A stretch of 64,000 nucleotides of DNA, from NCBI RefSeq assembly GCF_900113225.1, contig NZ_FOZE01000001.1:496001-560000 (forward strand), given 5' to 3'. The first letter of the stretch is position 1. Each line of letters starts with the position of its first letter. The translations under genes and the position numbers were made by a program. The notes beneath the pieces are model-generated. The model saw nothing but the letters and a program-made list of their open reading frames with translations. It searched no databases and was not told the origin of the DNA. Source of the DNA: Mitsuaria sp. PDC51 (GTDB lineage Bacteria > Pseudomonadota > Gammaproteobacteria > Burkholderiales > Burkholderiaceae_C). Shown here piece by piece: positions 18,040 through 58,797 of the stretch.

Positions 18040-18041
18040 AA

Positions 18042-18796: not shown

Positions 18797-18854
18797 TCGA
18801 ACGCCTGATCGACCGTCCGACCGACCGCCCCCGACGCCTGCCCGGAGCCCCGCC

Positions 18855-39939: not shown

Positions 39940-39978
39940 GCGGACTTCTTGTGACGTCAAGGAAGAGGGGTGCGTCGC

Positions 39979-41556
39979 TCAGCGTGAGGCCGCGGGCGAC
40001 GGCGTCGACGGGAGCGACGAGGGCGATGAGGCGGGAGGCGTCGACGACAGCAGCCCCGCCAGCGCGCCGGGTTCGAAGTGGCGATCGACGTAGTCGGCCA
40101 GTTCGTCGAAGACGCGGTCGAGCGGGCGGACCGGCCGGTCGAACAGCGCGGTCAGGACCCGCTCGTCCTCGAAGAGGCCGTGCAGGTAATGGCCGAGCAC
40201 CGGTCCGTGCTGCCAGCCGACCGGTTCGCCGAGGTCGTCGAACAGCACCGGCCGCGCCTCGGGGAGGGCCGGGTGTTGCGCGGTGCGGCCGTGATGGATC
40301 TCGTAGCCGCGCGCCGGCTGTCCGCCAAGCGCCGACCACGGCGCCGCCAGCGCCGGCGCGAAGCGGCAGCGGCTCTCGCGCAGCAGCTTGTCGCGCTCGA
40401 ACAGCGTCACCAGCGGCAGCAGGCCCAGGCCCGGGGCGTTGCCGTCCAGGCCATGCGGGTCGACCAGCGCCTCGCCCAGCATCTGCAGGCCGCCGCAGAT
40501 GCCCAGCACCGGCCGGCCGGCCGCCGCGTGCGCCGAGATCGCCACGTCCAGCCGCTGCGCGCGCAGCCAGGCCAGGTCCGCGGCCACCGCCTTCGAGCCC
40601 GGCAGCACGATCCAGTCCACGCCGTCGAGCTCGGCCGGCGAGCGGGCCCAGCTCAGCCGCACGTCGGCCAGGTTGCGCAGCGGCTGGAACTCGTCCAGGT
40701 TGGACAGGCGCGGATAAACGACCACCGCGATGCGCAGCGCGCGGCCGCCGCCGGTGCCGCCGGTGCCGCCGGTGGCGCGGTCGTCGAAGACGCCGTCCTC
40801 CTCCGGCAGCCCGTGGCCGCGCCACATCGGCAGCGTCGCGAGCGTCGGGACGCCCGTCACCTGCGCCAGCATCTCCGGCCCCGGCGACAGCAGCGACGCA
40901 TCGCCGCGGAAGCGGTTCAGCACGAAGCCGCGGATCAGCGCGCGCTCCTCGGCCGGCAGCAGCTGGTGCGTGCCGTACAGGTGCGCGAAGGCGCCGCCGC
41001 GGTCGATGTCGGTCACCAGCAGGCAGGCCGCGCCGGCCTCGCGGGCGGTACGCATGTTGACGTAGTCGCTGCTGTGCAGGTTGATCTCGGCGGGCGAGCC
41101 GGCGCCTTCGATGACGACCACGTCGTTCTCGTCCAGCAGCGCGTGCAGCGCGCCGCGCGCGCGGACCCAGAGCGCCTCGCTGCGCTCGCGCCAGGGCGCG
41201 CGGCTCAGCGCCTCGTCGACCTCGCCCAGCACCACCACCTGCGAGGCTGTGTCCTTCTCCGGCTTGAGCAGCACCGGATTCATGCGCACCTCGGGCCGGG
41301 CGCAGGCGGCCAGCGCCTGGAAGTACTGCGCGGCGCCGATCTCGCCCTGCCGACCGCCGAGGCCGGGCACGACGCGCGCGTTGTTGCTCATGTTCTGCGC
41401 CTTGTACGGCGCGACGCGCAGCCCCTGGCGCGCATACCAGCGGCACAGCGCCGTGGTGAGGAAGCTCTTGCCGGCGCCGCTGGTGGTGCCCAGCACCATG
41501 ACCGCGCGGCCGCGGCCGGTGGTCGCGCGGGGGCGGTCGTTGTCGCCGCCGCTCAT
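39979..41556 (-). CDS. cobQ: Cobyric acid synthase
   Basis: A 525-residue glutamine-dependent amidotransferase that amidates four side chains of adenosylcobyrinate diamide. The N-terminal ATPase domain has the P-loop LGTTSGAGKSFLTTALCRW (residues about 22-40). The C-terminal class I glutaminase domain has the nucleophilic Cys in LGICGGLQMLG (about residue 352), GYEIHHGRT and GHYLHGLFED with its His. A Gly/Thr-rich GCC repeat adds TGGTGGTGGG between the domains. The Pro/Ser-rich tail is of no obvious role. Its start overlaps the cobC stop (ATGA). Confidence 0.96.
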   Translation of the reverse strand: MSGGDNDRPRATTGRGRAVMVLGTTSGAGKSFLTTALCRWYARQGLRVAPYKAQNMSNNARVVPGLGGRQGEIGAAQYFQALAACARPEVRMNPVLLKPEKDTASQVVVLGEVDEALSRAPWRERSEALWVRARGALHALLDENDVVVIEGAGSPAEINLHSSDYVNMRTAREAGAACLLVTDIDRGGAFAHLYGTHQLLPAEERALIRGFVLNRFRGDASLLSPGPEMLAQVTGVPTLATLPMWRGHGLPEEDGVFDDRATGGTGGTGGGRALRIAVVVYPRLSNLDEFQPLRNLADVRLSWARSPAELDGVDWIVLPGSKAVAADLAWLRAQRLDVAISAHAAAGRPVLGICGGLQMLGEALVDPHGLDGNAPGLGLLPLVTLFERDKLLRESRCRFAPALAAPWSALGGQPARGYEIHHGRTAQHPALPEARPVLFDDLGEPVGWQHGPVLGHYLHGLFEDERVLTALFDRPVRPLDRVFDELADYVDRHFEPGALAGLLSSTPPASSPSSLPSTPSPAASR

Positions 41557-42668
41557 TGCGTGGTCTCCACTGGCACGGTCGTGTCGAACGCGCCATGCAC
41601 CGACGGCGCCGCGGGCAGCGCCCGATGCCCGCCGAAGGTCTGCATCGCCGCCGCCAGCGCGTCGACGGCTTCCGGCGCCTGCACCGACACCCGCACCAGG
41701 CCCGGCAGGCCGAAGGAGCTGGCGTCGCGGAGCTTGATCCCCAGCGCCCGCAGGCCTTCGAGCAGCGGCTCGGGCGTCGCCAGCCAGGGCGCCGGCAGCG
41801 CCGCGAGCCAGAAGTTGGCGACGCCGCCGTCGATCTGGTCGAAGCCCAGCGCCGCCATCCGGTCCCATTGCGCGGCGCGCCACTCGCGCAGCAGCGGCAG
41901 CGAGGCCTCGAGCTCGTCGCGGATCGCCGGCGTGGTCCAGGCCTCGAGCAGCGCCTGGCCCTCGGCCGACAGCACCCAGCTGGGCGCCAGTTCCGCGACG
42001 CGGTCGACCCAGAGGCCGTCGCGCGGCCCGAGCAGGTAGGCGCCGCGCACGCCGGTCATGCCCAGCGCCTTGTTGGGACAGACCAGGCGCCAGGCGCCGT
42101 CGGCGATCGCCTGCGGCAGCGCGCAGCCGCCCCCCAGGCGCAGCGCGCCGTAGGCCTGGTCGACGACGAGCTGCGAGCCGCTGTGGCCGAGCGCGAGCGC
42201 GACGGCGGTCCATTCGGCCGCGCCGAAGCTGGCGCCGGTGGGATTGTTGGGATCGCAGACCCAGACCAGCGACGGCAGGGTCAGCGTGTCGGCGAGCTGG
42301 AAGGCGTCCTCGTAGCCGCACACCTGCAGGCCGAGAGCATGCGCGGCGGCGGCGTAGTCGCCGAAGCCGGGCTGCGGCACGCACACGCGGGTCACGCCGG
42401 ACAGCATCGCGGCCAGCGTCAGGCGGCGGATTGCCTCCGAGCCGCCGGAGGCCGGCAGCACGCGGTCGGCGTCGACGCCGTGCCAGTCGCCCAGGCGCGC
42501 GCGCAGCGCCGCGTAGGCGGGATCGGGATACCGCAGCCGGTCCGCGCGCAGCACCGCGTCGAGCGCGGCCGGCGGCGGGCCGAGCGGATGGGCGTTGGTG
42601 GAGAAGTCGTGGCGCACGGGCGGGCCGGCGTCGGTGCCGCCGTGCAGCGGCAGGGGGAAGCGGCTCAT
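41553..42668 (-). CDS. cobC: L-threonine-O-3-phosphate decarboxylase / CobC-type aminotransferase
   Basis: A 371-residue PLP enzyme of class I/II. The PLP lysine is in CPNKALGMTGVRGAYLLG (about residue 203), and VCDPNNPTGASF is the cofactor loop. In aerobic cobalamin bacteria CobC/CobD-type proteins supply the aminopropanol arm precursor. Sequence alone cannot separate it from HisC, but the start (DFSTNAHPLGPPP) and location between cbiB and cobQ favour the cobalamin role; the real hisC is at 22.7 kb. It overlaps cbiB and cobQ by four bases each. Confidence 0.92.
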   Translation of the reverse strand: MSRFPLPLHGGTDAGPPVRHDFSTNAHPLGPPPAALDAVLRADRLRYPDPAYAALRARLGDWHGVDADRVLPASGGSEAIRRLTLAAMLSGVTRVCVPQPGFGDYAAAAHALGLQVCGYEDAFQLADTLTLPSLVWVCDPNNPTGASFGAAEWTAVALALGHSGSQLVVDQAYGALRLGGGCALPQAIADGAWRLVCPNKALGMTGVRGAYLLGPRDGLWVDRVAELAPSWVLSAEGQALLEAWTTPAIRDELEASLPLLREWRAAQWDRMAALGFDQIDGGVANFWLAALPAPWLATPEPLLEGLRALGIKLRDASSFGLPGLVRVSVQAPEAVDALAAAMQTFGGHRALPAAPSVHGAFDTTVPVETTQ

Positions 42669-43657
42669 CGCGGGCCTCCGAGGATCAGGGCCAGGCCGAG
42701 GCCCGGCGCGAACGCGCCGCGCAGCGCCGCGGCGCCGAGCGCCAGCAGCGCCGCCAGGCCCAGCAGCGCGCCGGCCGCGAGGCGCTGTGCGGCGCCGATG
42801 TCGCCGGCGACCACGGGCGTGCCGGACGGGTTCAGGGTGTAGTGGCCGGGTTTGCTCAGCAGCCGGTCGAGCCGCAAGGCCATCGCGCCCATCGGCCAGC
42901 CGCCGTTGGGCGAGGGCGTGCGGGCGGCTTCGCGCCGCAGGGACGCGAGCAGCGCCGGCCGCAGCGCGATGAGGGCCAGGCCGGTCAGCCGCGCGGGGAT
43001 CCAGGACAGCAGGTCGTCGGCGCGCGCGGCCCATTTGCCGGCCCATTCCCAGCGACCGCGATAACCCCACATCGCATCGGCGGTGTTGGCGAAGCGGTAG
43101 GCGGCCGCGCCGGGCAGTCCAGCGACCATGAACCAGAACAGCGGCGCCACGACCGAATCGTTGAGGTTCTCGGCCAGCGTCTCGATGGCGGTCTCGCGCA
43201 CCTGCACCGGCGAGAGCGCGCGCGTGTCGCGGCTGACGAGGCGGGACAGGCGCGCGCGGCCGTCGTCGAGCGAGCGCGCCAGCGCGGTCTCGACGGCGCC
43301 GACCTCGTCGCGCAGCATGCGCCAGGCCAGCATCGGCTTGAGCGCGAGTCCCACCAGCAGCGCCGCGGCGCCCAGGCGCCAGCCGCCGAGCCACGGTTCC
43401 AGGCCCGCGATGATGGTGTGCTCGATGGCCCAGGCGGTGAGGGCGGCGAGGAGAAGGCCGATCGTCCAGGCGAGTGCGCCGCCGAGGAAGGCGGCCTTGG
43501 CCGACATCGCGCACAGCCGGTCGCCGAAGAGCGCCAGGAAGCGGCCCATGCCGACGACGGGATGCACGGCGGCCGGTGGCTCGCCGAACCAGCGGTCGAC
43601 CAGCAGGGCGATCGGGATCGCGAGAGCGAGCAGCCAGGGCATGGGAAGCGTGGACAT
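42665..43657 (-). CDS. cbiB: Adenosylcobinamide-phosphate synthase
   Basis: A 330-residue inner-membrane enzyme attaching aminopropanol phosphate to adenosylcobyric acid. Typical blocks are LLVDRWFGEPPAAVHPVVGMGR (residues about 18-39), VRETAIETLAENLNDSVVAPLFW (about 152-174) and the AYRFANTADAMWGY motif. There are about five hydrophobic helices. Also called CobD in aerobic nomenclature. Its stop overlaps the cobC start by four bases; 40 bases separate it from cobO upstream. Confidence 0.95.
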   Translation of the reverse strand: MSTLPMPWLLALAIPIALLVDRWFGEPPAAVHPVVGMGRFLALFGDRLCAMSAKAAFLGGALAWTIGLLLAALTAWAIEHTIIAGLEPWLGGWRLGAAALLVGLALKPMLAWRMLRDEVGAVETALARSLDDGRARLSRLVSRDTRALSPVQVRETAIETLAENLNDSVVAPLFWFMVAGLPGAAAYRFANTADAMWGYRGRWEWAGKWAARADDLLSWIPARLTGLALIALRPALLASLRREAARTPSPNGGWPMGAMALRLDRLLSKPGHYTLNPSGTPVVAGDIGAAQRLAAGALLGLAALLALGAAALRGAFAPGLGLALILGGPR

Positions 43658-43697: not shown

Positions 43698-44267
43698 TCA
43701 ATCCTCGATGCCCCGCTGGGCGGGGACACCGGCCTTGAAGTGATGCTTGACCATCGTCATTTCGGTGACGGTGTCGGCCAGGTCGATCAGCTCCTGCGGC
43801 GCGCCGCGACCGGTCAGGCAGACATGCACATGGGGCGGCCGCTCGCGCAGCGCCTGCAGGACCGGCTCCAGCGGCAGCCAGCCGTAGCGCAGCGGATACA
43901 TGATCTCGTCCAGCACGACCAGGAAGTGCTCGCCGCCCAGGATGGTCGCCTTCGCGCGCTCCCAGCCGTCGCGCGCCAGCTGCGCGGAGTGATCCAGGTC
44001 CTTGCTCTTCCACGAGAAGCCGTCGCCGAGTCCCTCGATCGGCACGCCGATCTGCTCGAACAGCCGGTGCTCGCCGAAGCGCGCGCTCGGCACCTTCATG
44101 AACTGGTAGATGTGGACCCGCTTGCCGCGGCCATGCGCCCGCAGCGCCAGGCCGAAGGCGGCCGTGCTCTTGCCCTTGCCGTTGCCGGTGTGGACCAGCA
44201 CCAGGCCGCGGCGCTCGCCGCTGGGGATGATGCGTTCGCGGTCGACGGGCAGTTGTTCGATTTCCAT
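43698..44267 (-). CDS. cobO: Cob(I)yrinic acid a,c-diamide adenosyltransferase
   Basis: A 189-residue BtuR/CobO/CobA-type adenosyltransferase that transfers the adenosyl group from ATP to cob(I)alamin precursors. The P-loop is HTGNGKGKSTAAFGLALRA (about residues 28-46), with the conserved YQFMKV near the N-terminal third, and VVLDEIMYPLRYGWL. It is 153 bases after the second TonB receptor gene, with a REP-like repeat in the gap, and 40 bases before cbiB. Confidence 0.96.
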   Translation of the reverse strand: MEIEQLPVDRERIIPSGERRGLVLVHTGNGKGKSTAAFGLALRAHGRGKRVHIYQFMKVPSARFGEHRLFEQIGVPIEGLGDGFSWKSKDLDHSAQLARDGWERAKATILGGEHFLVVLDEIMYPLRYGWLPLEPVLQALRERPPHVHVCLTGRGAPQELIDLADTVTEMTMVKHHFKAGVPAQRGIED

Positions 44268-44420: not shown

Positions 44421-46547
44421 TCAGATCCGCGCCCGCAGGCTGAGGCGGAAGGTGCGCGGCTCCATCGGATGGACGAGCCGGCCGTCGATCCCCGCACCGC
44501 CATTGCAGCCCGCGCCTTCGGCCCGCGTGCAGGCGGCGCCCCAATACTCGATGTCGTTGGCCTTCGTGTTGAAGACGTTCAGCACATCCAGCCCCACCTG
44601 CCAGCGCTCGCTGACCTGGTACCCGAGCCGCCAGTTGGCGGTGAACACCGCCTTGGACTGCTGCGTGCCGGTCTCCTCGAGCGCATAGGCTCCCAGGTAG
44701 CGCAGCTTGACGCCGCTGGACCAGCGTCCCGCCGGCGCCCAGTTGGCCGACAGCGAGGCCGAGACCGGCACCGCATTGGGCACGCGCCGGCCGCTGCCGA
44801 ATTCATTCGAGGTCGCTTCGACGAAGCGCGCCCGCGACCAGGCGAGGTCCGCGTCGATCAGCCAGTCGCGGCCGACCTGCACGTCGTTGGACCACTCCAG
44901 GCCGAGTCGCCGCGACGCGCCGCGTGCCTCGGTCACGCCCTCGTCGCCGACGAAGACCAGCTCCGACGCCAGCCGGGCCTGCCACAGCGCCAGGCTGGTG
45001 GTCCAGCCCGACGCCGGCCGGGTGCGCAGTCCCAGCTCGGTGCTCTGCGTGCGGGCCAGCAGCGGCAGCGTGTCGGCCGGGCTGCCGTCGGCAGGATTGG
45101 TCGTGGTCGTCGCGCCGCGCGCGTCGTTGGAGCGGAAGGCGCGGGCCCAGTGCAGGTAGAGCTCGGTGTCCGAGGCGACCCGCGCGATCAGGCCCAGCTT
45201 CGGGCTGAACTGCGACTGGCTCGCCTTGCCGCCATTGCCGAGGTTGAATTCGCCGCCGGTGGGCGTGACCGTCGCCCGCATCGTGTCCCAGCGCGCGCCG
45301 ACGGTGCTGCGCAGCCAGCCGGTCCAGCGGCTGCCCCATTCGACGAAGGCGCCGGCGTTGTCCTGCGTGACGCGGTCCTCGCGCACGGTGTGCGTGCGGA
45401 CCCGGCCGACGGTGTCGTACAGCCCGAGCGTGCCGATCCGGTCATGGCGCCATTGCAGGCCCCAGGTCAGCGTCTGGTCGGCGGGCAGCCAGGCGGCCGG
45501 CAACTGGTGCTTGAGCGATCCGCCCCAGAGCCGGCGGTGGTCCGCCTGCTCGTGCTGATCGCCGTCCGGGCCGTTGATGAAACCCGACGGCGCGGAGAAC
45601 AGGTTGAGCGCGTAATCGATCACCCAGGCCTGCGCGGTCCACTGGCCGCCGCCCTGGTTGTAGGCGAGCGCGCCGCTCAGGCTGTGGCGGTGGGTGCGGC
45701 CGCCGTCGTCGGGCGAGAGCGTGCCGTAGCGGCCGATCTCGCCGCTGTCGATGGCGCGCTCGGGCACGTGCTCGCTGGCGCGCCAGCCGGCGCTGTAGCT
45801 CAGCAGGTCGACCTGCGCGCCGTTGCGCTCGTCGCCGCGCGTCAGCCGCAGCACCGCGTTGCGGCGGTGCAGGTCCTCGGGCTGGTCCCAGGGGCCGTCG
45901 TACCGGCTGCCCTCGACGGCACCCAGCAGCGTCCAGCCGCCGCCCGCCCGCGCGCTGCCGGCGGCCAGCGCGCGCTGGTAGCCGTAGGGGCCGGCGGTGA
46001 GCTGCGCATAGGGGCGCTCGATCTCGCCCAGGTAGCCGATGCGCGAGGCGCCGGTGGTGGCGAAGTCGCCGTCCTCGGCGGCGAAGGCGCCCTTGCGGTA
46101 GCGCAGGCTCTCGACCAGCTCGGGGATCAGGAAGTTCAGGTCCATGTAGCCCTGGCCGTGCGCGTGGCTGGCCATGTTCACCGGCATGCCCAGGACGAAG
46201 GTCGCGAAGTCGCTGCCGTGGTCGAGGTTGTAGCCGCGCAGGAAGTACTGGTTGGCCTTGCCGTCGCCGCTGTGCTGGGTGACGGTCATGCCGGGCATCG
46301 CCTCCAGCAGCTCGGCCGGGCGCAGCAGCGGGCGCAGCGCCAGGCGCTCGACGCCGACCTCGCCCTCGGAGGCGCTGCCCGCTTCGCCGAGCTGCGCGCG
46401 GCTGCTGATGCGGACGGTGTCCAGCGTGCCCGATGGGTCGGCCTGCGCGGCGGCGCCCGTCGCCGTTGTTGCGATCGCGATGGCGATGGCAATGGCCACG
46501 GCGGTCGGGCGATGTGCCCGCAGTGTGTGGGAGTCGTTGGCGTTCAT
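44421..46547 (-). CDS. TonB-dependent outer-membrane receptor of the CobN-like module
   Basis: A 708-residue receptor: Sec signal (Ala/Ile alternating, cleaved about residue 35), a plug domain (AELLEAMPGMTVTQHSGDG ... VLGMPVNMASHAHGQGYMDLNFLIPELVE), and a 22-strand barrel ending in RTFRLSLRARI with the usual C-terminal amphipathic strand. This type of receptor, with the HAHGQGYMD stretch in the plug, occurs next to CobN-like/ExbB-like genes in other proteobacteria. Its ATG overlaps the CobN-like stop by four bases. The substrate is unknown: a corrinoid, a metal chelate or another tetrapyrrole is plausible. Confidence 0.9.
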   Translation of the reverse strand: MNANDSHTLRAHRPTAVAIAIAIAIATTATGAAAQADPSGTLDTVRISSRAQLGEAGSASEGEVGVERLALRPLLRPAELLEAMPGMTVTQHSGDGKANQYFLRGYNLDHGSDFATFVLGMPVNMASHAHGQGYMDLNFLIPELVESLRYRKGAFAAEDGDFATTGASRIGYLGEIERPYAQLTAGPYGYQRALAAGSARAGGGWTLLGAVEGSRYDGPWDQPEDLHRRNAVLRLTRGDERNGAQVDLLSYSAGWRASEHVPERAIDSGEIGRYGTLSPDDGGRTHRHSLSGALAYNQGGGQWTAQAWVIDYALNLFSAPSGFINGPDGDQHEQADHRRLWGGSLKHQLPAAWLPADQTLTWGLQWRHDRIGTLGLYDTVGRVRTHTVREDRVTQDNAGAFVEWGSRWTGWLRSTVGARWDTMRATVTPTGGEFNLGNGGKASQSQFSPKLGLIARVASDTELYLHWARAFRSNDARGATTTTNPADGSPADTLPLLARTQSTELGLRTRPASGWTTSLALWQARLASELVFVGDEGVTEARGASRRLGLEWSNDVQVGRDWLIDADLAWSRARFVEATSNEFGSGRRVPNAVPVSASLSANWAPAGRWSSGVKLRYLGAYALEETGTQQSKAVFTANWRLGYQVSERWQVGLDVLNVFNTKANDIEYWGAACTRAEGAGCNGGAGIDGRLVHPMEPRTFRLSLRARI

Positions 46548-49500
46548 GCAGTCCCCTGTGGGCTCAAGTTGTTGTCGTTGTTCGTCGCCCGTCGCGCCTG
46601 CCACATCGCGCCGGCGCTCATCAGCAGCGCCATCGCGACCCACGCGAGCGCCTGCTCGAGCGAGCGCTGCGTCGCCGCACGCGGCTCGGGCTTCGGCGCG
46701 TCGGGCACGCGCTGCAGCGCGAGGCCGCGCACGGTCGGCACTGGCGGCGTCGGCGGCACGGCCGCGGGGGCGCGCTCGGGCGCCTTCGCCGCGGGGCGAG
46801 GCGCGGCCGCCGGCGCGACCGGCAGCGCGGGCACCGCCTGCGGCAGTTGATCCGCCGTCCAGCGCCGCACGGCCGCCAGCTCGTTGCTCAGCGGCGCGTC
46901 CTTCGTGAGCTCGCGGTACAGCGCGGCGAGCCCCTGCTTCGTCTGCGCGTCCGGCTGCCAGTAGCCCATGCGCTCGGCCTGCACCAGCCGCTCCAGCGCC
47001 TGCGCGTAGGCCTGCGGGTTCTGCTTGAGCCACGCGGGCACGCCGATCTGGTGCTTGTCCTTCACCAGCACGTCGTAGAAGCTCTGCCAGTGGTCGGCGC
47101 GCACCGTGCCCGGCGCGATGCTCTGCCAGCCGAAGCTGTACTGCACCGCCTTGAGCACCTGCAGCGCGCCCGCCCAGCCCTCGGCCTGCTGCGCCTTCAG
47201 CCAGCCGGGATGCAGGTAGCGGCTCTGCATCTCCAGTGCGATCGCCTGTGTGGCGGTCTCGGTGTGCGCCTCGGCGGCGTCCTGCAGCTGGCTCACGTGC
47301 AGGGCCAGGCCCTTCGTGTTGCCGGCGACCCGCGCGGCCGCGGCCAGCCCGCCGAGGTACTGGAACGGATCGTCGCTGCTGACCATCGCGTAGAGGTGGC
47401 TGCTGCGCGACATCAGCGCCGCGTCGGTGTGACGCAGGTGCGCGCCCAGCGCCTGGCGCGCCTGCCCCGCGGGCACGGCGAGCGGCTCGCCGTCGACATA
47501 GGGTTGGCTCATCGTCGAGAGGAACAGCTGGCCCAGTCGCGGATCGGGTCGGCCATCGCCGCCCTGCAGGCCGTTGTCCTGCACCGCGTCGGCGATGCCG
47601 GTGCCGTAGTCGCCGGCCGGGTTGCCGAAGACGCGGGCCTGCGCCAGCGTCCGCGCCTGCGCCGCCGGCACGCCGGCCTGGCGCAGCTCGGCCGCGATGA
47701 CGCGGTTGTTGGCGGCGATGGCGTTGTCCGCCTCGGCCTCGCCGGCCGCGGCGACCGCCTGGTCCACCAGCTTCATCAGCGCCGGGAACTGGTCGCGGTA
47801 GGAGCCGGTGATCGACAGCAGCACGTCCACCCGAGGCCGGCCCAGCTCGGCGAGGCTCAGCAGCCGGATCGAGGTCGGACGGCCGGTGGCGTCCCACACC
47901 GGCGTCGCGCCCAGCGCCACCAGCGCCTGCGCCTCCATCACGCCCTGATGGCGCAAGGTCTCGCCGGCCCACAGCGACAGCGCCAGCCGCGTCGGCGCCG
48001 CGCCGGCCCGGGCCTGCTCCTCGTACCAGCGCTTGAACAGCGCCTGCGCCGCCTCGAAGGCCTGGCGCGTGGGCAGCCGCGCGGGGTCGAGGCCGGTGAG
48101 GTTGCGGCCGGTCGGCAGGCTCTCCGGATTGCGCAGCAGGTCGCCGCCGTAGGCCGCGGGGATGAAGCGGCCATCGAGCGCGCGCAGCAGGCCGGGCATC
48201 TCGCCTTCGGTCGACAGCCGCGCGGCCATCTCCTGCGCCCGCAGCGCGAGCTGGTACAGCGCCGCCTGGTCGATCGGCTTGCGCGCCGCGCGGTTGGGCA
48301 CGAAGCCGTCGCCGCAGGTCACCGGCAGCGCGTGCGCGGCGCTGGCGCTGCCCGCCGGTGTCGACGCCGCAGCCGACGCCGCGTGTTTCGCCTCGGCCGC
48401 CACGGCCGATGCCGCCGATGCCGCCGCCGGCGTGCCGACGGCCACGCAGGCGGAGGGCCGCAGGTCGAGCTGGCTCGCCGCCTGCGCGTCCTTGAGCGCG
48501 ACATCGAGCCAGCGGGCCGGTCGCGCCTTCGCGACGCCCTCGTGGTTGATGAGGAAGGCCTCGTCGATGTCCTCGCCCAGCGCCTCGATCAAGGGCACGC
48601 GCAGCAGCTGCAGGATCGAGCCGCGGCGCTGGTCCTCGTCGGGGACCACGCCGAAGACCGCCAGCCCCTTGGGCTGCGAGCTCTGCGCCAGGCGGTCCAG
48701 GTAGGGATGCAGCAGCTCCAGGAAGCCGCTGAAGTCGGCCGCGATCCGCTCGGCGCTCCAGCCCAGGTCGCGGTGCAGGTTGTGCTCGACGAACTGCTGC
48801 AGCATGCGGCGCTCCAGCCCCTGGCGCGTCGGGCCGGGATCGACCGTCTCCCACTCGTGCATCAGCTCATGCATGTGGGCCATGCCCGCGTTGAAGCCCG
48901 CCGGCGCGAAGCTCGGCGTGCGGTGGCTCACCATCAGCGCGCGGCCGCGGCGCTTGGCCGTGAGCGCCTCGCCGAGGTTGTCGACGATGTAGGGATAGAT
49001 CACCGGCGTGTCGCCCAGCGGCAGCCAGACCGGGTCCCACACGTCGGGACCGCGCAGCTTGCCCGGCGCCCACTCCTGCGTGCCGTGCGTGCCGAAATGG
49101 AGGATCGCGTCGGCCTGCCGCGCCCACAGGTAGGTGGCGAGGTAGTGATGCGACAGCGGCGTGCGGCTGCGATGCATGAAAGGATCCTGGCCGTTGCGCA
49201 GGGTCTCCTCGCGCGGCGGCTGCGGCAGCACGGTCAGCGCGCCGAGCTTCAGGCGCGGGATGACGAAGACCGGCTCGCCGCGCTGCCGCACGACATAGCG
49301 GCTGCTCGCGGGCGGGCCCCACTTGGCGACGATGGGATCGCGCACCGCGGCGGGCAGCGCGTCGAACCAGGCGGTGTAGCGCGCGAGCGGCAAGGCTTCG
49401 GCCTGGTCGGCGTCGAGCAGGGCCTGCAGGTCGGTGCCGGGGTAGTAGGCCGAGAGCAGCGGCTTGAGGCCGGCGATCCAGTCCGCCTCCGCCTTCGGCG

Positions 49501-50749
49501 TGACGGCGTAGCCGGCGTCCTTCAGCCCCTCGCTGACGCGCGCGAGGCTGCGCGGCACGTTGAGGAAGGACGCGCCGAAGTTGCTGCCGCCGGGCGGATA
49601 GTTGTAGACGAAGGCCACCAGTCGCTTGTCGGCGTTGGCCCGGGTCTGCAGCGCGATCCAGCGCGCGGCCTTGCCGGCGACGCTGGCGGCCTGGCGGTCG
49701 ATGAGTTCAGGCTCGCCGCGTTTCGGATGGGCGACCACGACGACCGGATCGATCAGGCCCGCCGCCTCCGGCTGCGCGAAGTAGAACGGAATGTCGGCTT
49801 GCGAGAGGCCGGTCTCGCTGCCTTCCCAGGCCGCGGCCTGGTCCTGCCGGTAGGGCTGCGTCTGCAGCACCGGCACGCCCCAGCGCTCGAAGGTGGGCTG
49901 CAGGCTGGCGCCCTGCGGCAGCAGGCTGTGGTTGACGATCACGCGGGCCTGGACCTGGCCGTCGCGCTCCAGCAGCGCCGACAGCGGCTGGTCGCTGAGC
50001 TGGCCGCTGAAGGCGGCGTAGGCGAGCAGGCCGCGCTCGCGGAACATCGCGAGCCAGCGGTCCAGCCAGGCGGTGTTGCCTTGGACGAAGTGGTAGCGGT
50101 GCAGCAGCAGCGCCACGGGCTCGCCGCGCAGGCCCTGCTGCGCGGCCCAGGCGCGGAACTCGGCGGCGTCGGCGAAGAGCCGCGGCGCGCCGGGGTAGTG
50201 GATGCCGCGCTGCGGGATCAACTGCGGTGGGCCGAGGTCGGGTGCGGGCGCGCCCGCGAGCTGCGCCCGCGCGAGCGCGAAGGCGGTGCGCGTGTTGCTC
50301 GGTCCGCCGGCCTGCAGGTAGGCGCGCAGGCTGCGGTCGCTAGGGGTGGGTTCGCCGGCGGGGATCCACAGCACCTGCGCCTCCGGCTTGCCGACGCGCC
50401 GCAGCGCGGCATCGACGATCGGGCGCAGCCGCGCCTCGGCGGTCGCATGCGGGATGTCGACCCAGACCAGCGCGGCCTCGCGCAGCGCGCGGTCGAGCGC
50501 GGGATCCTGCTCGATGGGCGCGCCGCGCAGCGGGTATTCGATCTGCCGGACTGCGAAGCCGGCGGCCTTTCCCTCGCGCTCGAGCAGCGCATGCTTGGCC
50601 GCGGGCGTGATGTCGACGCTGAGGAAGAGCACCGGGGTGCCCGCGGCCGCGCTGCCCGCGGTCGCGGGCGCGCACGACGCCGCCGCGCAGAAGCTCAGGG
50701 CCGCGGCCGCGGCCGCGAGGCAGCGGGCCAGCAGGGCGCGGACGCTCAT
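46544..50749 (-). CDS. CobN-like chelatase, exported and membrane-anchored
   Basis: A 1401-residue CobN/magnesium-chelatase large-subunit homologue. The CobN core runs from about residue 40 to 1290; characteristic stretches are ILHFGTHGTQEWAPGK, GFNAGMAHMHELMHEWETV and ANNRVIAAELRQAGVP. Two features are atypical for cytoplasmic CobN: an N-terminal signal (residues about 1-30, Ala-rich with an arginine start), and a Pro/Ala stalk followed by one membrane helix at about 1367-1383 with arginines after it. It should be a periplasmic protein anchored by its C-terminus. No cobS/cobT AAA+ subunits are near. Neighbours are ExbB- and ExbD-like genes and a TonB receptor, overlapping by four bases on each side. 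An Ala-rich loop is inserted around residues 730-780. Confidence 0.88.
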   Translation of the reverse strand: MSVRALLARCLAAAAAALSFCAAASCAPATAGSAAAGTPVLFLSVDITPAAKHALLEREGKAAGFAVRQIEYPLRGAPIEQDPALDRALREAALVWVDIPHATAEARLRPIVDAALRRVGKPEAQVLWIPAGEPTPSDRSLRAYLQAGGPSNTRTAFALARAQLAGAPAPDLGPPQLIPQRGIHYPGAPRLFADAAEFRAWAAQQGLRGEPVALLLHRYHFVQGNTAWLDRWLAMFRERGLLAYAAFSGQLSDQPLSALLERDGQVQARVIVNHSLLPQGASLQPTFERWGVPVLQTQPYRQDQAAAWEGSETGLSQADIPFYFAQPEAAGLIDPVVVVAHPKRGEPELIDRQAASVAGKAARWIALQTRANADKRLVAFVYNYPPGGSNFGASFLNVPRSLARVSEGLKDAGYAVTPKAEADWIAGLKPLLSAYYPGTDLQALLDADQAEALPLARYTAWFDALPAAVRDPIVAKWGPPASSRYVVRQRGEPVFVIPRLKLGALTVLPQPPREETLRNGQDPFMHRSRTPLSHHYLATYLWARQADAILHFGTHGTQEWAPGKLRGPDVWDPVWLPLGDTPVIYPYIVDNLGEALTAKRRGRALMVSHRTPSFAPAGFNAGMAHMHELMHEWETVDPGPTRQGLERRMLQQFVEHNLHRDLGWSAERIAADFSGFLELLHPYLDRLAQSSQPKGLAVFGVVPDEDQRRGSILQLLRVPLIEALGEDIDEAFLINHEGVAKARPARWLDVALKDAQAASQLDLRPSACVAVGTPAAASAASAVAAEAKHAASAAASTPAGSASAAHALPVTCGDGFVPNRAARKPIDQAALYQLALRAQEMAARLSTEGEMPGLLRALDGRFIPAAYGGDLLRNPESLPTGRNLTGLDPARLPTRQAFEAAQALFKRWYEEQARAGAAPTRLALSLWAGETLRHQGVMEAQALVALGATPVWDATGRPTSIRLLSLAELGRPRVDVLLSITGSYRDQFPALMKLVDQAVAAAGEAEADNAIAANNRVIAAELRQAGVPAAQARTLAQARVFGNPAGDYGTGIADAVQDNGLQGGDGRPDPRLGQLFLSTMSQPYVDGEPLAVPAGQARQALGAHLRHTDAALMSRSSHLYAMVSSDDPFQYLGGLAAAARVAGNTKGLALHVSQLQDAAEAHTETATQAIALEMQSRYLHPGWLKAQQAEGWAGALQVLKAVQYSFGWQSIAPGTVRADHWQSFYDVLVKDKHQIGVPAWLKQNPQAYAQALERLVQAERMGYWQPDAQTKQGLAALYRELTKDAPLSNELAAVRRWTADQLPQAVPALPVAPAAAPRPAAKAPERAPAAVPPTPPVPTVRGLALQRVPDAPKPEPRAATQRSLEQALAWVAMALLMSAGAMWQARRATNNDNNLSPQGTA

Positions 50750-51195
50750 GGCTGAGGCGTTCCGGCCGTCGTCGGCGCGGGGGCCGCCGCGGCGCCGCGA
50801 CCGCCGCCCGCAGCAGGGCCCGTGGGACCGGCCGGCGTGGCCGCGGGCGAGCCGCCCGGCGTTCCGGCCGCGCCAGCCTCACCGGCTTCGGGCACGTAGA
50901 TGATGGAGCCGTCCTTCATCTTGTAGGCGACGCCGGCGCGCTCCCCCTGGCCTTCGGCGCTGCCGCCGTTGCCGCGGTACTTGATCTCCTGCCCGTCCTT
51001 GCGGACGACGATCTCCATGCCCGGTTGACCGGGGTTGCGGATCACCGTTTCGTTCGCATGCGATTGCTGCTGCAGCGCGACCGCCGTCAGCAGCGCGACG
51101 ACCAGCACCAGGAACACGTCCACCAGGTTCACCGCGGACAGCATCGGGTCGTCGTCCTCCTCGGCGAGGATGGACAGGCGGCGGCCGGTGCTCAT
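50746..51195 (-). CDS. DUF2149 (ExbD-like) membrane protein
   Basis: A 149-residue protein with one N-terminal membrane helix (MLSAVNLVDVFLVLVVALLTAVALQQ, residues about 19-43) and a periplasmic domain of about 70 residues followed by an Ala/Gly/Pro tail. The Asp in VNLVDVFLVL is at the position of the proton-carrying Asp of ExbD/TolR. This suggests a proton-driven partner of the ExbB-like protein. It overlaps the ExbB-like gene and the CobN-like gene by four bases each. Confidence 0.85.
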   Translation of the reverse strand: MSTGRRLSILAEEDDDPMLSAVNLVDVFLVLVVALLTAVALQQQSHANETVIRNPGQPGMEIVVRKDGQEIKYRGNGGSAEGQGERAGVAYKMKDGSIIYVPEAGEAGAAGTPGGSPAATPAGPTGPAAGGGRGAAAAPAPTTAGTPQP

Positions 51196-51653
51196 GCCCA
51201 GCCCTGTTCGGTCTTGATCGCCAGCAGCTCGGCCAGCAGCCAGCGGCGGCGGATCGAGTACACGACCAGCGCGATCGCCGCCGCGGCCAGCGCGAGCACG
51301 ACGCCCGAGAAGGCCGAGCTGAACACCGCCAGCGCCTGCTGGCCCTGGCCGGCCGCGACGCTCTGCAGCGCCGGGCCCAGCGGGACCATGGTCGCGATCA
51401 GGCCCAGCAGCGGGGCGACGCGGCCCAGCAGGCGCGGTGCCTCCAGGCGACGCACGACCTGCAGCTCCAGCGTCTCGAGCGAGCTGCCGGCCGGCACCTG
51501 CAGCAGCCGGTAGCCGGGACGGCGCCGCTGCACGGCTTCCATCAGCGTGGCGCCGGCGCTCCACAGCGCATAGACGAAGCCCAGGGCGACGAGGATCAGC
51601 ACCGGCCACAGCAGGGCCTGCGCGATGTGGGCGAATCCGGATTCGAGCAGCAT
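51192..51653 (-). CDS. MotA/TolQ/ExbB-type proton channel protein
   Basis: A 153-residue short ExbB-like membrane protein with three hydrophobic segments (about residues 10-30, 85-110 and 115-135). The TolQ/ExbB core is seen as RVAPLLGLIATMVPLGPALQSVAAGQGQQALAVFSSAF. It should form a proton-motive-force-driven complex with the DUF2149 protein. It lies seven bases after the cobB stop and overlaps the DUF2149 start by four bases. It is not a generic ExbB for TonB; it is dedicated to the CobN-like module. Confidence 0.88.
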   Translation of the reverse strand: MLLESGFAHIAQALLWPVLILVALGFVYALWSAGATLMEAVQRRRPGYRLLQVPAGSSLETLELQVVRRLEAPRLLGRVAPLLGLIATMVPLGPALQSVAAGQGQQALAVFSSAFSGVVLALAAAAIALVVYSIRRRWLLAELLAIKTEQGWA

Positions 51654-51660: not shown

Positions 51661-53202
51661 TCAGTTCGTGGCAAGAGGATGGGGGTGGGCGGGGGCCGCC
51701 TCGGCGGTGGCGGCGGTCGTGGCAGCGGCCGCGGTGGCGCCGCCGAAGAACGCGGCGACCGCGGCCGGGTTCGAAGGGAAGTAGTGATGCACGTAGCTCG
51801 CGCGCAGCGAGCCCGCGATGTAGAGCGCCTCGGCCGCGCGACCCGCGTTGGGATTGCGCGCGGTGGCCACCGGCGACCACGGCGTCGCCATCGTCGAGTA
51901 GTGGAAGGTGTGTCCCCGCAACTCGCCCTCCGGCCAGTCGAGCGACTGCAAGCCCAGCGCAGCCAGCCGCTTCTGCATCGAGGCACGGCCCGGCATCAGG
52001 CCCGCCATCGGATGGGCTACGCCGTCGGCATCGGCCAGCTCATCCAGCAGCACCAGCATCCCGCCGCATTCGGCGAGCAGCGGCTTGCCCGCCGCCAGGT
52101 GCGCGGCCAGGTCGCTGAAGAAGCCAGCATGCGCACGCAGCGCCGCGGCGTGCAGCTCGGGGTAACCGCCCGGCAGCCACACGGCCTCGCACGCGGGCAA
52201 GGGCTCGCCGGCGATCGGGCTGAACGTCAGGACCTCCGCGCCAAGCGCGCGAAGGAGGTCGAGATTGGCGGGGTAGATGAAGGAGAAACACGCGTCGCTC
52301 GCCACGGCGATGCGTCGGCCGGTGAGCGGCAGTCCGGGCTGCACGGGATCGAGCGACGGACAGGCAACCGGGGGCCCCTTTTCTCCATCTCCTACCTTTG
52401 CTTGCCTACCGGCAAGCAAATTCCTCCCTTGAGTTCCGAAAAGGGGCCCCCGGTCGCCCGTCCCACCACCATCGAGGACTTCGCCGGTCAACGTGGCAGG
52501 CGCGTGGGCCGGTGCGGCGACGGGCAGGGATGTCGATGTGCGGGCGGCAGCCGCGGGGGCAGCCAGGACGGTGCCTGCGTCCCAGGCATCGGCCCAGGTG
52601 TCCAGTTGCGCGTCGATGTCGGGGAGCTCCAGCGCCTGCACCAGGCCCAGGTGGCGCTCGGGGAGCGAGAGCGACGCGTCGCGCTTGAGCGCGGCAATCA
52701 GCGGCAGGTCGGCAGGCAGGGACTCGCCGACCATGCGCGCGTGCGCGTCGCTGCCCACCCGGTTGGCGATCACGCCCACGACCTGGATGTCGTCGCGGAA
52801 GCGCGCCAGGCCCGTGGCCAGCGCGCCGAAGGTCTGCGCCATCGCGGAGGCATCCATCACCGCGATCACCGGCAGGCCGAAGGCCGCCGCCAGGTCCGCG
52901 CTGCTGGGCTTGCCGTCGAACAGGCCCATCACGCCCTCGACCAGTACCAGGTCCGATTCGCGCGACGCCTGCGCCAGCAACTCGCGGCAGTGCGCCTCGC
53001 CGCCCATGAAGAGGTCGAGCTGGTAGACGGTGTGGCCGCTGGCGCGGGCGAGCACCATCGGGTCCAGGTAGTCCGGGCCGGTCTTGAAGACGCGCACGCG
53101 CAGGCCGCGCCGGCGCGCCGAGCGCGCAATGGCCGCAGTGACGCTGGTCTTGCCCTGGCCAGAAGCCGGCGCGCTGATCAGGAAGGCGGGGCAGTCGGTC
53201 AT
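51661..53202 (-). CDS. cobB: Cobyrinic acid a,c-diamide synthase, with inserted palindromic element
   Basis: A 513-residue glutamine-dependent enzyme amidating the a and c side chains of (hydrogeno)cobyrinate. The N-terminal ATPase domain starts LISAPASGQGKTSVTAAIA (P-loop about residues 8-20). The glutaminase domain has Cys in LLAECGGMLVLLDEL (about residue 385). Residues about 247-282, between the two domains, are encoded by a 106-base palindromic element that stays open in frame and looks foreign (DRGPLFGTQGRNLLAGRQ). The ATG at 53202 gives the better N-terminus; 53241 is an in-frame alternative overlapping the btuD stop. The Ala-rich tail (about residues 480-513) has no known role. Confidence 0.93.
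   Translation of the reverse strand: MTDCPAFLISAPASGQGKTSVTAAIARSARRRGLRVRVFKTGPDYLDPMVLARASGHTVYQLDLFMGGEAHCRELLAQASRESDLVLVEGVMGLFDGKPSSADLAAAFGLPVIAVMDASAMAQTFGALATGLARFRDDIQVVGVIANRVGSDAHARMVGESLPADLPLIAALKRDASLSLPERHLGLVQALELPDIDAQLDTWADAWDAGTVLAAPAAAARTSTSLPVAAPAHAPATLTGEVLDGGGTGDRGPLFGTQGRNLLAGRQAKVGDGEKGPPVACPSLDPVQPGLPLTGRRIAVASDACFSFIYPANLDLLRALGAEVLTFSPIAGEPLPACEAVWLPGGYPELHAAALRAHAGFFSDLAAHLAAGKPLLAECGGMLVLLDELADADGVAHPMAGLMPGRASMQKRLAALGLQSLDWPEGELRGHTFHYSTMATPWSPVATARNPNAGRAAEALYIAGSLRASYVHHYFPSNPAAVAAFFGGATAAAATTAATAEAAPAHPHPLATN
52358..52463. repeat. Nested palindromic element inside cobB
   Basis: Outer arms CCGGGGGCCCCTTTTC (52368-52383) and GAAAAGGGGCCCCCGG (52438-52453) are perfect 16-base inverses. 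Inside is a second perfect 10-base inverted repeat, TTTGCTTGCC-TACC-GGCAAGCAAA (52397-52420). Similarity extends outward for another 10 bases at 8/10. The element is AT-richer than its surroundings, is read in frame through cobB, and falls in the interdomain linker. It resembles a small mobile palindrome of the REP/MITE/RPE kind. Confidence 0.85.
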
Positions 53203-53233
53203 CGCGGCATCGGCTCCGTCGTTGTCGCGTCGT

Positions 53234-54187
53234 TCATGCATTGAGCGCCACCCATCGGCCTTGCACCTGCAGGATCAGCAGGCGGTGGTGGAAGACGCGC
53301 TGCAGCGCGTCGTGCGTGGCGGGGTCGTGGGGCGGGCCCTGGTGGACGATGCGGCCGCCATCCATGACGACCAGCGTGTCCGCCTGCAGCGCGACATTGA
53401 GTTCATGCAGCACGCTGACCACCGCGCCGCCCGCCGCGACGCGGCCGCGCACGATGCGCGCCCAGTCGCTCTGGTGCGGCGGATCCAGGTGGGCCAGCGG
53501 CTCGTCCATCAGCAGCACGCCGGAATGCACCGCCAGCGCCCGCGCCAGCAGCACCCGCTGGCGCTCGCCGCCGGAGAGGCTGCCCAGCGCGCGGTCCCGC
53601 CAGTCCCAGCTCTGCGTCTGGCGCATCGCATGCTCGACCGCGGCATGGTCGGCCGCGCTCGCCGGCGCCAGCCAGGGCTGGTGGGGCAGGCGGCCGAGCA
53701 TCGCGATGTCGTAGGCGGTCAGGTCCTCGGACGCGGTCTCGTTCTGGCCCAGCCACGCGACCTGGCGCGCACGCGCCTTCGCCGGCCAGGTCGGCCACGG
53801 CTTGCCGTCCAGCGTCAGCGTGCCGTCGAAGGGCAGCAGGCCGGCGATCGCGCGCAGCAGCGTGGACTTGCCGGCGCCGTTCGGGCCGACGATGGCCGTC
53901 CACGCGCGCGGCGCGGGCGCCAGCGACAGCGGGTGCAGGACCTGGCGGTGGCCCAGCGACAGCGCGCGGAGCTCGATGCGCAGCGCGGGCACGTGGCCGA
54001 GCGTCACGGCGTCGGGCGCCGTCGCGGCACCGCCGGTGAGGCCAGCATCCATGGCGACGGTGGCGGACGCGACATCGGCCGCGGTCGCGGACGTGCTCGC
54101 GTCCCCGGTCGCGAAGGATGCGCCAGAGCTTGTGGGCACGCCGCCAGCGCCTGGCCGGCCGCCGTCGTCGAATCGGGCGGCGCTCAT
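53234..54187 (-). CDS. btuD: Vitamin B12 ABC transporter ATP-binding protein
   Basis: A 317-residue ABC ATPase with Walker A IVGPNGAGKSTLLRAIAG (about residues 98-115), signature SLSGGERQR (about 200) and Walker B GVLLMDEPLAHLD (about 220), plus the His switch in SVLHELN. The first 60 residues are an Ala/Gly/Thr/Ser-rich extension of no known role. It is followed downstream by cobB and overlaps the btuC stop by four bases. Context with BtuF, BtuC and the riboswitch identifies the corrinoid substrate. Confidence 0.94.
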   Translation of the reverse strand: MSAARFDDGGRPGAGGVPTSSGASFATGDASTSATAADVASATVAMDAGLTGGAATAPDAVTLGHVPALRIELRALSLGHRQVLHPLSLAPAPRAWTAIVGPNGAGKSTLLRAIAGLLPFDGTLTLDGKPWPTWPAKARARQVAWLGQNETASEDLTAYDIAMLGRLPHQPWLAPASAADHAAVEHAMRQTQSWDWRDRALGSLSGGERQRVLLARALAVHSGVLLMDEPLAHLDPPHQSDWARIVRGRVAAGGAVVSVLHELNVALQADTLVVMDGGRIVHQGPPHDPATHDALQRVFHHRLLILQVQGRWVALNA

Positions 54188-55233
54188 TGGCCGCCTCCCG
54201 CGCCGCCGAAATGCGCCTTGCGTCTATGCATCAGCCACAGCAGGTAGCTGCCGCCCAGCAGCGCGGTGATGATGCCCACCGGCAGTTCCTGCGGCGCGAT
54301 GACCCAGCGGGCGGCGATGTCGGCCGCCAGCAGCAGCGCGCCGCCGGTCAGCGCGGACAGCAGCAGCAGCGCGCCATGCGTCGTCGGTCCCCAGCTGCGC
54401 ACCAGGTGCGGCGCGACCAGGCCGACGAAGGCGATCAGCCCGCACTGCGCGACCGCCGCGCCCGTCGCCAGCGAGAGCGCCGCGATCAGCAGCAGCCGGA
54501 TGAGCGTGAGGCGCTGGCCCAGCGAGCGGGCGGTGTCCTCGCCCAGCGTCAGCGCGTCCAGCGTGCGGCTGCAGCCGAGCGCCGTCAGCAGGCACAGGCC
54601 CAGGGCGACGGCCATGACCTGCACCGCGCTCCAGCCGACATAACCGGTGCTGCCCAGCATGAAGGCCTGCATCGCGCGCAGGATGTCGGGGTTCATGAGC
54701 GTCAGCAGCGCGGCGCCTGAGCCCAGCACCACGCCGACGACGACCCCGGCCAGCAGCAGGCGCAGGCTCTGCGTGACGCCGCGCGCCAGCACCAGCGTGA
54801 GCAGCACCGCGCCGATGGCGCCGACGAAGGCCGCGCCGGTCATGCCGACGCGCAGCGCCAGCGCCGCCGCCGCCGGCGAGATGCCCATGACGAAGAGCAG
54901 CGCGGCCACGCCCAGCGATGCGCCGGCGGAGCAGCCGAGCAGGTAGGGATCGGCCAGCGGGTTGCGGAACAGGCCCTGCGCGACCGCGCCGGCCAGCGCC
55001 AGCAGCGCGCCCGCCAGCCAGGCGCCGAGGGAGCGCGGCGCGCGGATGTCCCAGAGGATCAGCCGCATCGTGTCGCCGGCCTCGGTCCAGGGACTCCAGC
55101 CCAGGCTGCCGATCGCCAGGCCCAGCGCGAGCAGCACCGCGCCCAGCACGAGCAGCGCGACGAACTGCGCGGCGGTCCTGGCGGACGCGGCCGATGCGGC
55201 CGATGCAGCCGACGGAGCGGACTTGGCGCGCAT
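54184..55233 (-). CDS. btuC: Vitamin B12 ABC transporter permease
   Basis: A 349-residue FecCD-type inner-membrane permease with about 10 spans. Characteristic blocks are RAPRSLGAWLAGALLALAGAVAQGLFRNPLADPYLLGCSAGA (residues about 66-107), LAGVVVGVVLGSGAALLTL and CGLIAFVGLVAPHLVRSWGPTTH near the C-terminal third. The start overlaps the btuF stop by one base (TGATG), and the stop overlaps btuD by four bases. The N-terminus has a run of SAASAASAASA from a short repeat. Confidence 0.95.
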   Translation of the reverse strand: MRAKSAPSAASAASAASARTAAQFVALLVLGAVLLALGLAIGSLGWSPWTEAGDTMRLILWDIRAPRSLGAWLAGALLALAGAVAQGLFRNPLADPYLLGCSAGASLGVAALLFVMGISPAAAALALRVGMTGAAFVGAIGAVLLTLVLARGVTQSLRLLLAGVVVGVVLGSGAALLTLMNPDILRAMQAFMLGSTGYVGWSAVQVMAVALGLCLLTALGCSRTLDALTLGEDTARSLGQRLTLIRLLLIAALSLATGAAVAQCGLIAFVGLVAPHLVRSWGPTTHGALLLLSALTGGALLLAADIAARWVIAPQELPVGIITALLGGSYLLWLMHRRKAHFGGAGGGQ

Positions 55234-56171: not shown

Positions 56172-56794
56172 CGCTTGTTCTCCTCGTTGTCCGTGGCGTC
56201 GACGCGCTCGCGGGCGGCGGCCTCGTTGTCGTCCTGGTCCTCGTCGAGCGGCTCGACCGGACGCGTCCACGGTTGGCCGGCCACCATCAGCGTCAGCTCG
56301 CCGCACTGCCGCGCGACCTGCTGGTTGAGCCGGCCGAGTTCGTCCACATAGGCGCGCACCTCGCGGCCCATCGGCATCACGCCCCATCCGACCTCGTTGG
56401 ACACGAAGATCACCGGCGAGGCCAGCGTCGGCAGCAGGCGCCGCAGTCCGGAGCACTCGGCGCGCCAGTCGTCCAGGCGCGGCGCGCCGGCCATCGGCAT
56501 CAGCCAGTTGGTGAGCCACAGCGTCAGGCAGTCGACGACCAGCAGCCGCTGGGGCGATGCCGCCGCCCGCAGCGCCTCGCACAGCCGCAGCGGCGCCTCG
56601 ACGGTGTCGAAGCCGGCCGGACGGTCGGCGCGGTGGCGGGCGATGCGCTCGCGCATCTCGTCGTCATGGGCCTCGGCGGTCGCGACCACCGTGACCCGAT
56701 GGCCCGGCGTGCGCGCCCAGCGCAGCGCGAGGCGCTCCGCATGGCGCGACTTGCCGCTGCGCTGGCCGCCGACGATCAGGTGATGAGCAGGCAT
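56168..56794 (-). CDS. cobU: Adenosylcobinamide kinase / adenosylcobinamide-phosphate guanylyltransferase
   Basis: A 208-residue bifunctional enzyme (called CobP in aerobic bacteria) that phosphorylates adenosylcobinamide and transfers GMP. The P-loop VGGQRSGKSRHAERLA is at residues 8-23. Other blocks: VVATAEAHDDEMRERIARHRADRP and VVDCLTLWLTNWLM, and IFVSNEVGWGVMP. The C-terminal 35 residues are acidic/Glu-rich and unusual. It follows btuB by 83 bases on the same strand and overlaps btuF. Confidence 0.95.
   Translation of the reverse strand: MPAHHLIVGGQRSGKSRHAERLALRWARTPGHRVTVVATAEAHDDEMRERIARHRADRPAGFDTVEAPLRLCEALRAAASPQRLLVVDCLTLWLTNWLMPMAGAPRLDDWRAECSGLRRLLPTLASPVIFVSNEVGWGVMPMGREVRAYVDELGRLNQQVARQCGELTLMVAGQPWTRPVEPLDEDQDDNEAAARERVDATDNEENKR

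Positions 56795-56877: not shown

Positions 56878-58797
<1,920 letters not shown>

Follow-up and report, generated by a model that had tools for sequence, protein, structure and literature searches.

The 64,000-nucleotide stretch of the Mitsuaria sp. PDC51 genome analysed here (the window) carries a cobalamin-riboswitch operon in which a four-gene module, encoding an ExbB-like channel protein, a DUF2149 protein, a large membrane-anchored relative of the chelatase subunit CobN and a TonB-dependent receptor, lies between the cobalamin genes cobB and cobO. The module is real and recurrent, and it is a variant of the BtuS/HmuS kind, neither HmuS itself nor a cytoplasmic cobaltochelatase. Our preferred reading, to which we give a probability of roughly 0.4, is that of a periplasmic chelatase, linked to the proton-motive force, which acts on salvaged corrinoids and most likely loads cobalt. 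The original prediction, of a proton-motive-force-powered machine that inserts or removes the metal of a periplasmic tetrapyrrole, is partly supported as a whole, and the Proteobacterial branches, the tree, the residue pattern and the short stand-alone units described below are added here. L and G numbers denote loci and genomes.

An anchored CobN relative and its partners

The four overlapping minus-strand genes were found between cobB and cobO with exactly the coordinates and lengths first predicted, each overlapping the next by 4 nt. The ExbB/TolQ-like protein (51192-51653, 153 residues) carries the family signature and matches positions 41-118 of the 127-position PF01618 model at 22.2 bits, which narrowly misses the cut-off of 22.9; the ExbD-like DUF2149 protein with its membrane Asp (50746-51195, 149 residues) matches PF09919 at 80.4 bits (cut-off 27.1); the CobN-like protein (46544-50749, 1401 residues) matches PF02514 at 843 bits and NF004644 at 1498 bits; and the receptor (44421-46547, 708 residues) has barrel and plug domains (PF00593/PF07715). 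The PF02514 domain and a chelatase fold, for which the nearest solved structure is the six-domain Mycobacterium tuberculosis CobN (7C6O), place the CobN-like protein in the CobN/ChlH class I chelatase superfamily, and topology, tree, residues and fold assign it to branch B of the BtuS/HmuS family.

Among the uncharged 17-residue stretches of this protein, residues 1367-1383 are the most hydrophobic and are followed by QARR, the preceding stalk (residues 1291-1366) holds 17 Pro and 19 Ala among its 76 residues, and the N-terminus is hydrophobic and signal-like, in line with the anchor, stalk and export signal read earlier from the sequence. In a Kyte-Doolittle scan of 75 proteins, with N-termini taken as mechanical open reading frame starts, a C-terminal hydrophobic 17-mer (one charge or none, at a distance of 2-36 residues from the C-terminus) was present in 68/68 DUF2149-linked or HmuS proteins, compared with 0/3 cytoplasmic CobN and 0/4 BchH proteins. 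The last 130 residues contain on average 17.8 Pro in branch B, 2.0 in HmuS and 4.3 in CobN. These features suggest that the chelatase body faces the periplasm. Porphyromonas gingivalis HmuS produced in E. coli is likewise suggested to be a periplasm-exposed inner-membrane protein, on evidence that its authors call supporting and not definitive; its C-terminus was found exposed to the periplasm, whereas the charges of the window protein predict a cytoplasmic C-terminus (PMC13227078).

The NCBIfam name, cobaltochelatase subunit CobN, would suit an ordinary cytoplasmic subunit, misread as exported and served by an unrecognised AAA+ partner, and we regard this explanation as highly improbable in view of the C-terminal helix and of the gene content of the host. 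Cytoplasmic CobN works with the ATP-driven CobST or ChlID, and CobNST is soluble, whereas the window protein is anchored and its host (G000; 5.85 Mb, six contigs, 100% complete) encodes no other PF02514 protein. No match to CobT (TIGR01651) and no ChlI/ChlD pair was found in this genome, in which the sole TIGR02442 match (34.9 bits, to the AAA part) is presumably a MoxR-type protein; CbiC, a marker of corrin-ring synthesis, was not found there either. The predicted lack of AAA+ partners therefore holds for CobT and ChlI/ChlD, CobS not having been searched by a model of its own. PF02514 proteins occur in 20 of the 32 genomes examined. In all seven genomes that encode a cytoplasmic-type protein (1069.6-1300.7 bits), a ChlI-like match scores 302-467 bits and a second, ChlD-like one 59-275 bits, with none above the model's own cut-off. 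Among the 13 genomes with only anchored or HmuS-like types, the score reaches at most 47 bits in 12, and in G016 a ChlI-like stretch lies in three pieces (best 122 bits). CobT was above cut-off in 0/32 genomes.

A quick IQ-TREE analysis divided 74 CobN-like proteins cleanly into seven groups (BchH, CobN, HmuS, A, B, B' and C). Of these, A, B, B', C and HmuS stand together apart from CobN and BchH, with a value of 97 in the Shimodaira-Hasegawa-like approximate likelihood ratio test on this rapidly computed, long-branched tree. Branch A lies next to the sister pair B and B', and C is separate; the deep order is unsure, since the program issued warnings about long branches and unusual composition. 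The tree and the residue table leave out L031 and L034 (no CobN), L035 (frameshifted), L044 (partial) and L067 (motif absent), and L060, with a DUF2149 match below cut-off and unmatched module genes, was dropped from all counts. DUF2149 occurs in 18/120 genomes of the family; in overlapping samples of the class and of the phylum the figures are 20/370, with 19 exceeding the cut-off, and 19/397. The host's own family also includes a genome with an HmuS-type protein (G016; L030, 2283-6806), which has HGR and LDHVYEFM motifs and groups with Bacteroides HmuS.

Like Bacteroides thetaiotaomicron HmuS, the window protein is an anchored CobN relative with hydrophobic segments at both ends that retains the essential His538. 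The equivalents of HmuS His538 and Glu577 are invariant across the 74 tabulated proteins. H555 of the window protein, the His of the domain III HxGxH motif, is invariant in the same 74. The window protein differs from HmuS, which belongs to a haem operon and to a different clade, in having Asp1127/Gln1130 at the places of HmuS His1209/Glu1212 (LSLDHxxEFMGG), and on this strict definition it is not HmuS; M. tuberculosis CobN shares both the six-domain fold and the Asp/Gln pair. The HmuS haem ligands Met79/His254 are replaced by Pro and a gap, in a head/neck alignment that is weak, and the Met-rich insertion is absent (0 Met in a 175-residue region vs a mean of 17.2 in six HmuS-type proteins). 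In five branch-A proteins (L046, L047, L066, L068 and L070), position 1209 is occupied by an HmuS-like His (DHPFEYL), which the other members of that branch lack.

These comparisons bear directly on the idea that the module is a periplasmic de-chelatase of the HmuS type, stripping the metal from an imported tetrapyrrole, such as haem, a cobalt porphyrin or a corrinoid with the wrong metal, either to supply cobalt or iron or as clean-up. The shared architecture, the common clade against CobN and BchH, the retained catalytic His and the metal-binding ZrgA-like protein encoded in some branch-B operons speak for it, as does the experimental demonstration that HmuS de-chelates haem (PMC12583661); the HmuS-specific residues and Met-rich insertion are missing, however, the operon is headed by a cobalamin riboswitch, and a cell that does not build the corrin ring would gain nothing evident from freed cobalt. 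We consider a de-chelatase unlikely, and use of haem iron as the main role was rejected as first choice on the same absences and on the riboswitch.

Among the partners, the Thr of the second transmembrane helix of the ExbB-like protein is invariant (46/46 aligned), with the channel positions of E. coli ExbB as reference, and the membrane Asp of DUF2149 (NLVDVFLV) is invariant in 32/32 aligned proteins, with a single branch-C protein among them, the remaining ones having diverged too far to pass the BLAST step. HmuV is taken to be a DUF2149 protein. The corresponding partners of HmuS are the ExbB-like HmuU and this ExbD-like HmuV (PMC10100974). The window module thus has the partner genes of a BtuS/HmuS-type system, together with its hydrophobic N-terminus, C-terminal helix and place in the tree; in B. 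thetaiotaomicron, too, a TonB receptor lies nearby.

Cobalamin control of the module

The operon is headed by a cobalamin riboswitch (RF00174, 58907-59173, minus strand; 41.6 bits vs a gathering threshold of 31.5), on the same strand as the operon and about 110 bp before btuB, in agreement with the riboswitch control first proposed. Two more matches lie elsewhere in the host genome (C2:558782-559056, 35.7 bits; C6:2227279-2227354, 31.5 bits, partial). A promoter scan gave no promoter-like site, and a terminator scan was uninformative (one terminator-like match vs 3.9 expected).

Such control recurs in two non-sister branches. A riboswitch on the same strand and contig lies upstream of cobN in 7/9 B, 2/2 B' and 12/15 C loci, together 21/26; two further C loci have one below cut-off, and in one (G244) none was found. 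In the other 25 loci (24 branch-A-like and one HmuS-like), none was found upstream within 20 kb; L044 and L067 were retained in this survey of riboswitches. Two genomes (G075 and G077) carry both A and B modules and one (G775) both A and C, and in these it is the B or C module, and not the A module, that has the riboswitch nearby. In branch C the riboswitch lies 85-116 bp before cobN in four loci, 12/15 loci have a cobO or cobB match near cobN, and in G196 a PduO-type adenosyltransferase gene is placed just upstream of cobN, with a slight overlap in the mechanical gene calls. Direct testing with Rfam of 12 of the 64 named B loci found the riboswitch upstream in 12/12; in six of these, which have few B12 neighbours, it directly precedes the cluster, and the other six were also positive.

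A module for zinc or general metal starvation, under B12 control by chance, would be consistent with sister branch A, which is presumed to be the type of the Pseudomonas aeruginosa genes PA1922-1925, part of a Zur-regulated locus (PMC4542158), and with the ZrgA-like protein of some B operons. Such a protein was found by BLAST near the module in L119, L122, L124, L125 and L126, in the last four of them encoded between riboswitch and module; the two that were scanned (L122, 8554-9096; L125, 8660-9181) match PF10986 at 97 bits. The branch B module of L125 (Azonexus hydrophilus) adjoins a branch A module tail to tail (9639-20830). The riboswitch distribution (21/26 vs 0/25) and the embedding among corrinoid genes in both B and C nevertheless make the zinc explanation very unlikely.

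Operon composition and the TonB receptor

Pfam and NCBIfam matches give the gene order btuB-cobU-btuF-btuC-btuD-cobB-[exbB-DUF2149-cobN-TonB receptor]-cobO-cbiB-cobC-cobQ-cobT, all on the minus strand, with the names btuF, btuC, btuD and cobC resting partly on position. Upstream of the module lie a btuB-like TonB-dependent receptor gene (56878-58797; Pfam barrel and plug, TIGR01779 at 396 bits, below the cut-off of 599.7), cobU for cobinamide kinase/guanylyltransferase (56168-56794; PF02283, 174.7 bits), a btuF-like periplasmic binding protein gene (55233-56171; PF01497), a btuC-like permease gene (54184-55233; PF01032, 256 bits), a btuD-like ATPase gene (53234-54187; PF00005, named by position) and cobB for cobyrinic/hydrogenobyrinic acid a,c-diamide synthase (51661-53241; NF002204 at 424 bits, cut-off 254). 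Downstream follow cobO for corrinoid adenosyltransferase (43698-44267; PF02572, 210 bits), cbiB (42665-43657; PF03186, 258 bits), a cobC/cobD-type gene for an aminotransferase-fold protein (41553-42665; PF00155, 89.5 bits, named by position), a cobQ-like amidotransferase gene (39979-41556; PF07685, 146.5 bits, and PF01656, 68.7 bits) and a cobT/cobU-type gene for 5,6-dimethylbenzimidazole phosphoribosyltransferase (38896-39960; PF02277, 418.6 bits). Beyond the cob operon lies a PepSY-TM protein gene (36038-37579, minus strand; PF03929, 188 bits); PepSY-TM proteins are often reductases of siderophore systems.

Relatives were compared in 69 collected loci, of which 64 were counted as branch B (13 placed in the tree, the rest assigned by identity of at least 46%; L137, L139 and L141-L143, at 35-42% identity, were left out) and 43 had enough flank on both sides, 21 short-flank loci being dropped. 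The nearest named CobN DNA, at 92%, is that of Roseateles chitinivorans, records very near the window possibly being absent from this comparison. The composition was counted by position with strand ignored (L115 has divergent btu genes and cobB), and the 43 loci include exbB and DUF2149 in 40 each, both before cobN, cobO in 38, btuB in 36, and btuF, btuC, btuD, cobB, cbiB and cobC in 37 each. A receptor of the 708-residue type follows cobN in only 8/43, which argues against the earlier view that the module has its own TonB receptor; an obligate receptor was rejected, and the window's receptor is best regarded as an optional part. Within the btu/cob operon region of L083, a Guanidine-III riboswitch match (5670-5736; 39.1 bits, cut-off 36) was also seen, possibly by chance.

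The same counts bear on a further alternative, in which the CobN-like body would be a corrinoid-binding arm driven by ExbB/DUF2149 that helps to empty BtuB or to hand its cargo to BtuF, with no metal chemistry. The Pro-rich stalk of branch B is TonB-like and the partners resemble ExbB/ExbD; yet receptors of the 708-residue kind are not conserved, Pfam and NCBIfam matched no TonB domain in the CobN-like protein, and the His538/Glu577 equivalents are invariant. Authors working on hmu do see HmuU/HmuV as the drivers of the outer-membrane receptor (PMC10100974, PMC12583661), and we rate such a transport role as unlikely also, just behind a de-chelatase.

Proposed corrinoid metallation and its significance

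The host bacterium appears to salvage B12 rather than make the ring, and since it has cobB, its gene list suggests that the operon could carry the ring from the (hydrogeno)byrinic acid stage towards cobalamin. CbiC was found in 0/11 B/B' genomes, so cobalt alone should not help these bacteria and a corrinoid-directed step would be needed; late cobalt insertion in de novo synthesis was likewise rejected for the host, which has no CbiC. Loading of cobalt into metal-free or wrong-metal corrinoids agrees with a CobN-like site, with control by B12, with the position of the module between cobB and cobO, and with the metal-binding protein encoded next to it in some operons. According to the preferred reading, cobalamin shortage would lead, via the riboswitch, to synthesis of the module. 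In its core, exbB-DUF2149-cobN, the body of a class I chelatase would lie in the periplasm, anchored to the inner membrane through the Pro/Ala stalk, and an ExbB/ExbD-like proton channel coupled to it would take the place of the AAA+ motor (CobST/ChlID) that cytoplasmic chelatases use. The substrates would be corrinoids brought in by BtuB, before BtuFCD hand them over to the cytoplasm, and cobalt would be loaded into metal-free or wrongly metallated forms, which CobB, CobO, CobQ and the rest could then finish into cobalamin. In this complete form, with the ExbB/DUF2149 motor replacing ATP-driven CobST/ChlID and cobalt loaded before import in B12-salvaging bacteria, the proposal is tentative and on balance doubtful.

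Several observations weigh against cobalt loading by such a machine. HmuS, the sole characterised anchored relative, removes metal (PMC12583661), and no report of metal-free corrinoid uptake by these bacteria was found in the portion of the literature searched. The Asp/Gln pair is common in branch A (Asp 18/23, Gln 17/23) and is therefore no mark of cobalt insertion, and the Z-score lead of CobN over HmuS in the fold comparison is small. An acidic residue is found in the third helix of ExbB, and the family alignment of the ExbB-like protein has no conserved one there. Two genomes (G052 and G054) have the ExbB/DUF2149 pair without any PF02514 protein, which weakens an obligate ExbB-DUF2149-CobN coupling. 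A DUF2149 gene above cut-off is present elsewhere in the genomes of L110, L126 and L127, whose branch-B cobN has no adjacent exbB-DUF2149, but the two genomes used for comparison (L095 and L104), which have a pair of their own, carry a second such gene as well, so that the spare gene is only suggestive and proves little. CbiC is present in 4/15 branch-C genomes, which probably make the corrin ring, and 3/15 C loci (L049, L050 and L074) have no cobO or cobB match nearby. The riboswitch search scored up to 56 candidates per genome, contig ends are close to some of the 25 other loci, and the 43 loci, many of them from Acidovorax and Roseateles relatives, do not give independent operon counts. The only CbiC-carrying branch-C genome with a locus scanned for CbiD (G196) has CbiD, which points to the early-cobalt route. 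In L031 (G052) and L034 (G054), around locus positions 9829-10845, the pair stands, by eye, beside genes for a secreted repeat protein and two-component-like proteins, and the ExbB-DUF2149 pair may serve other periplasmic clients too.

The kinship in kind with hmu and with a Zur-regulated TonB/CobN/ExbD locus, proposed earlier, is seen in the literature (PMC12583661, PMC4542158). PA1921-PA1925, likened here by description, brings together genes for a TonB receptor, a CobN-like protein and an ExbD-annotated protein, and it is under zinc-starvation control (PMC4542158), whereas the window module has a cobalamin riboswitch. The earlier statement that no such role had been shown is partly out of date, with respect to haem de-chelation by HmuS, a membrane-bound CobN relative (PMC12583661), and to the cobalamin riboswitch that precedes some hmu-like operons, for which cobalamin metabolism has been suggested (PMC10100974). 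No test of a B12-controlled CobN-like protein was found in the parts of the literature searched. Together with the suggestion for hmu-like operons, a similar speculation for Chlorobaculum (Eisen 2002, as told in PMC8620254) means that the idea is not wholly new. The Bacteroides fragilis BtuS1/BtuS2 proteins and those of hmu-like operons are CobN-like and predicted to be periplasmic, and some of the hmu-like operons are riboswitch-led; the proteins belong to Bacteroidota, were studied for haem iron, include one operon with two receptors and are likened by description only (PMC6460266, PMC10100974), and unlike them the window module sits inside a corrinoid salvage operon. Desulfovibrio vulgaris CbiK-P provides a precedent for a cobalt chelatase outside the cytoplasm, although it is a class II chelatase of another family (PMC4063343).

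Whatever the exact role, anchored CobN relatives fall into several distinct lineages in these data. Databases that name them give branch B proteins and Bacteroides HmuS the same label, "cobaltochelatase subunit CobN", and counts of B12 producers could therefore be inflated. The short riboswitch-exbB-DUF2149-cobN units offer a small, directly testable system. If the preferred reading is true, tetrapyrrole metallation would gain a second energy source, the proton-motive force as against ATP, and a second place, the periplasm, and the B12 economy would include a trade in metal-free or wrong-metal corrinoids.

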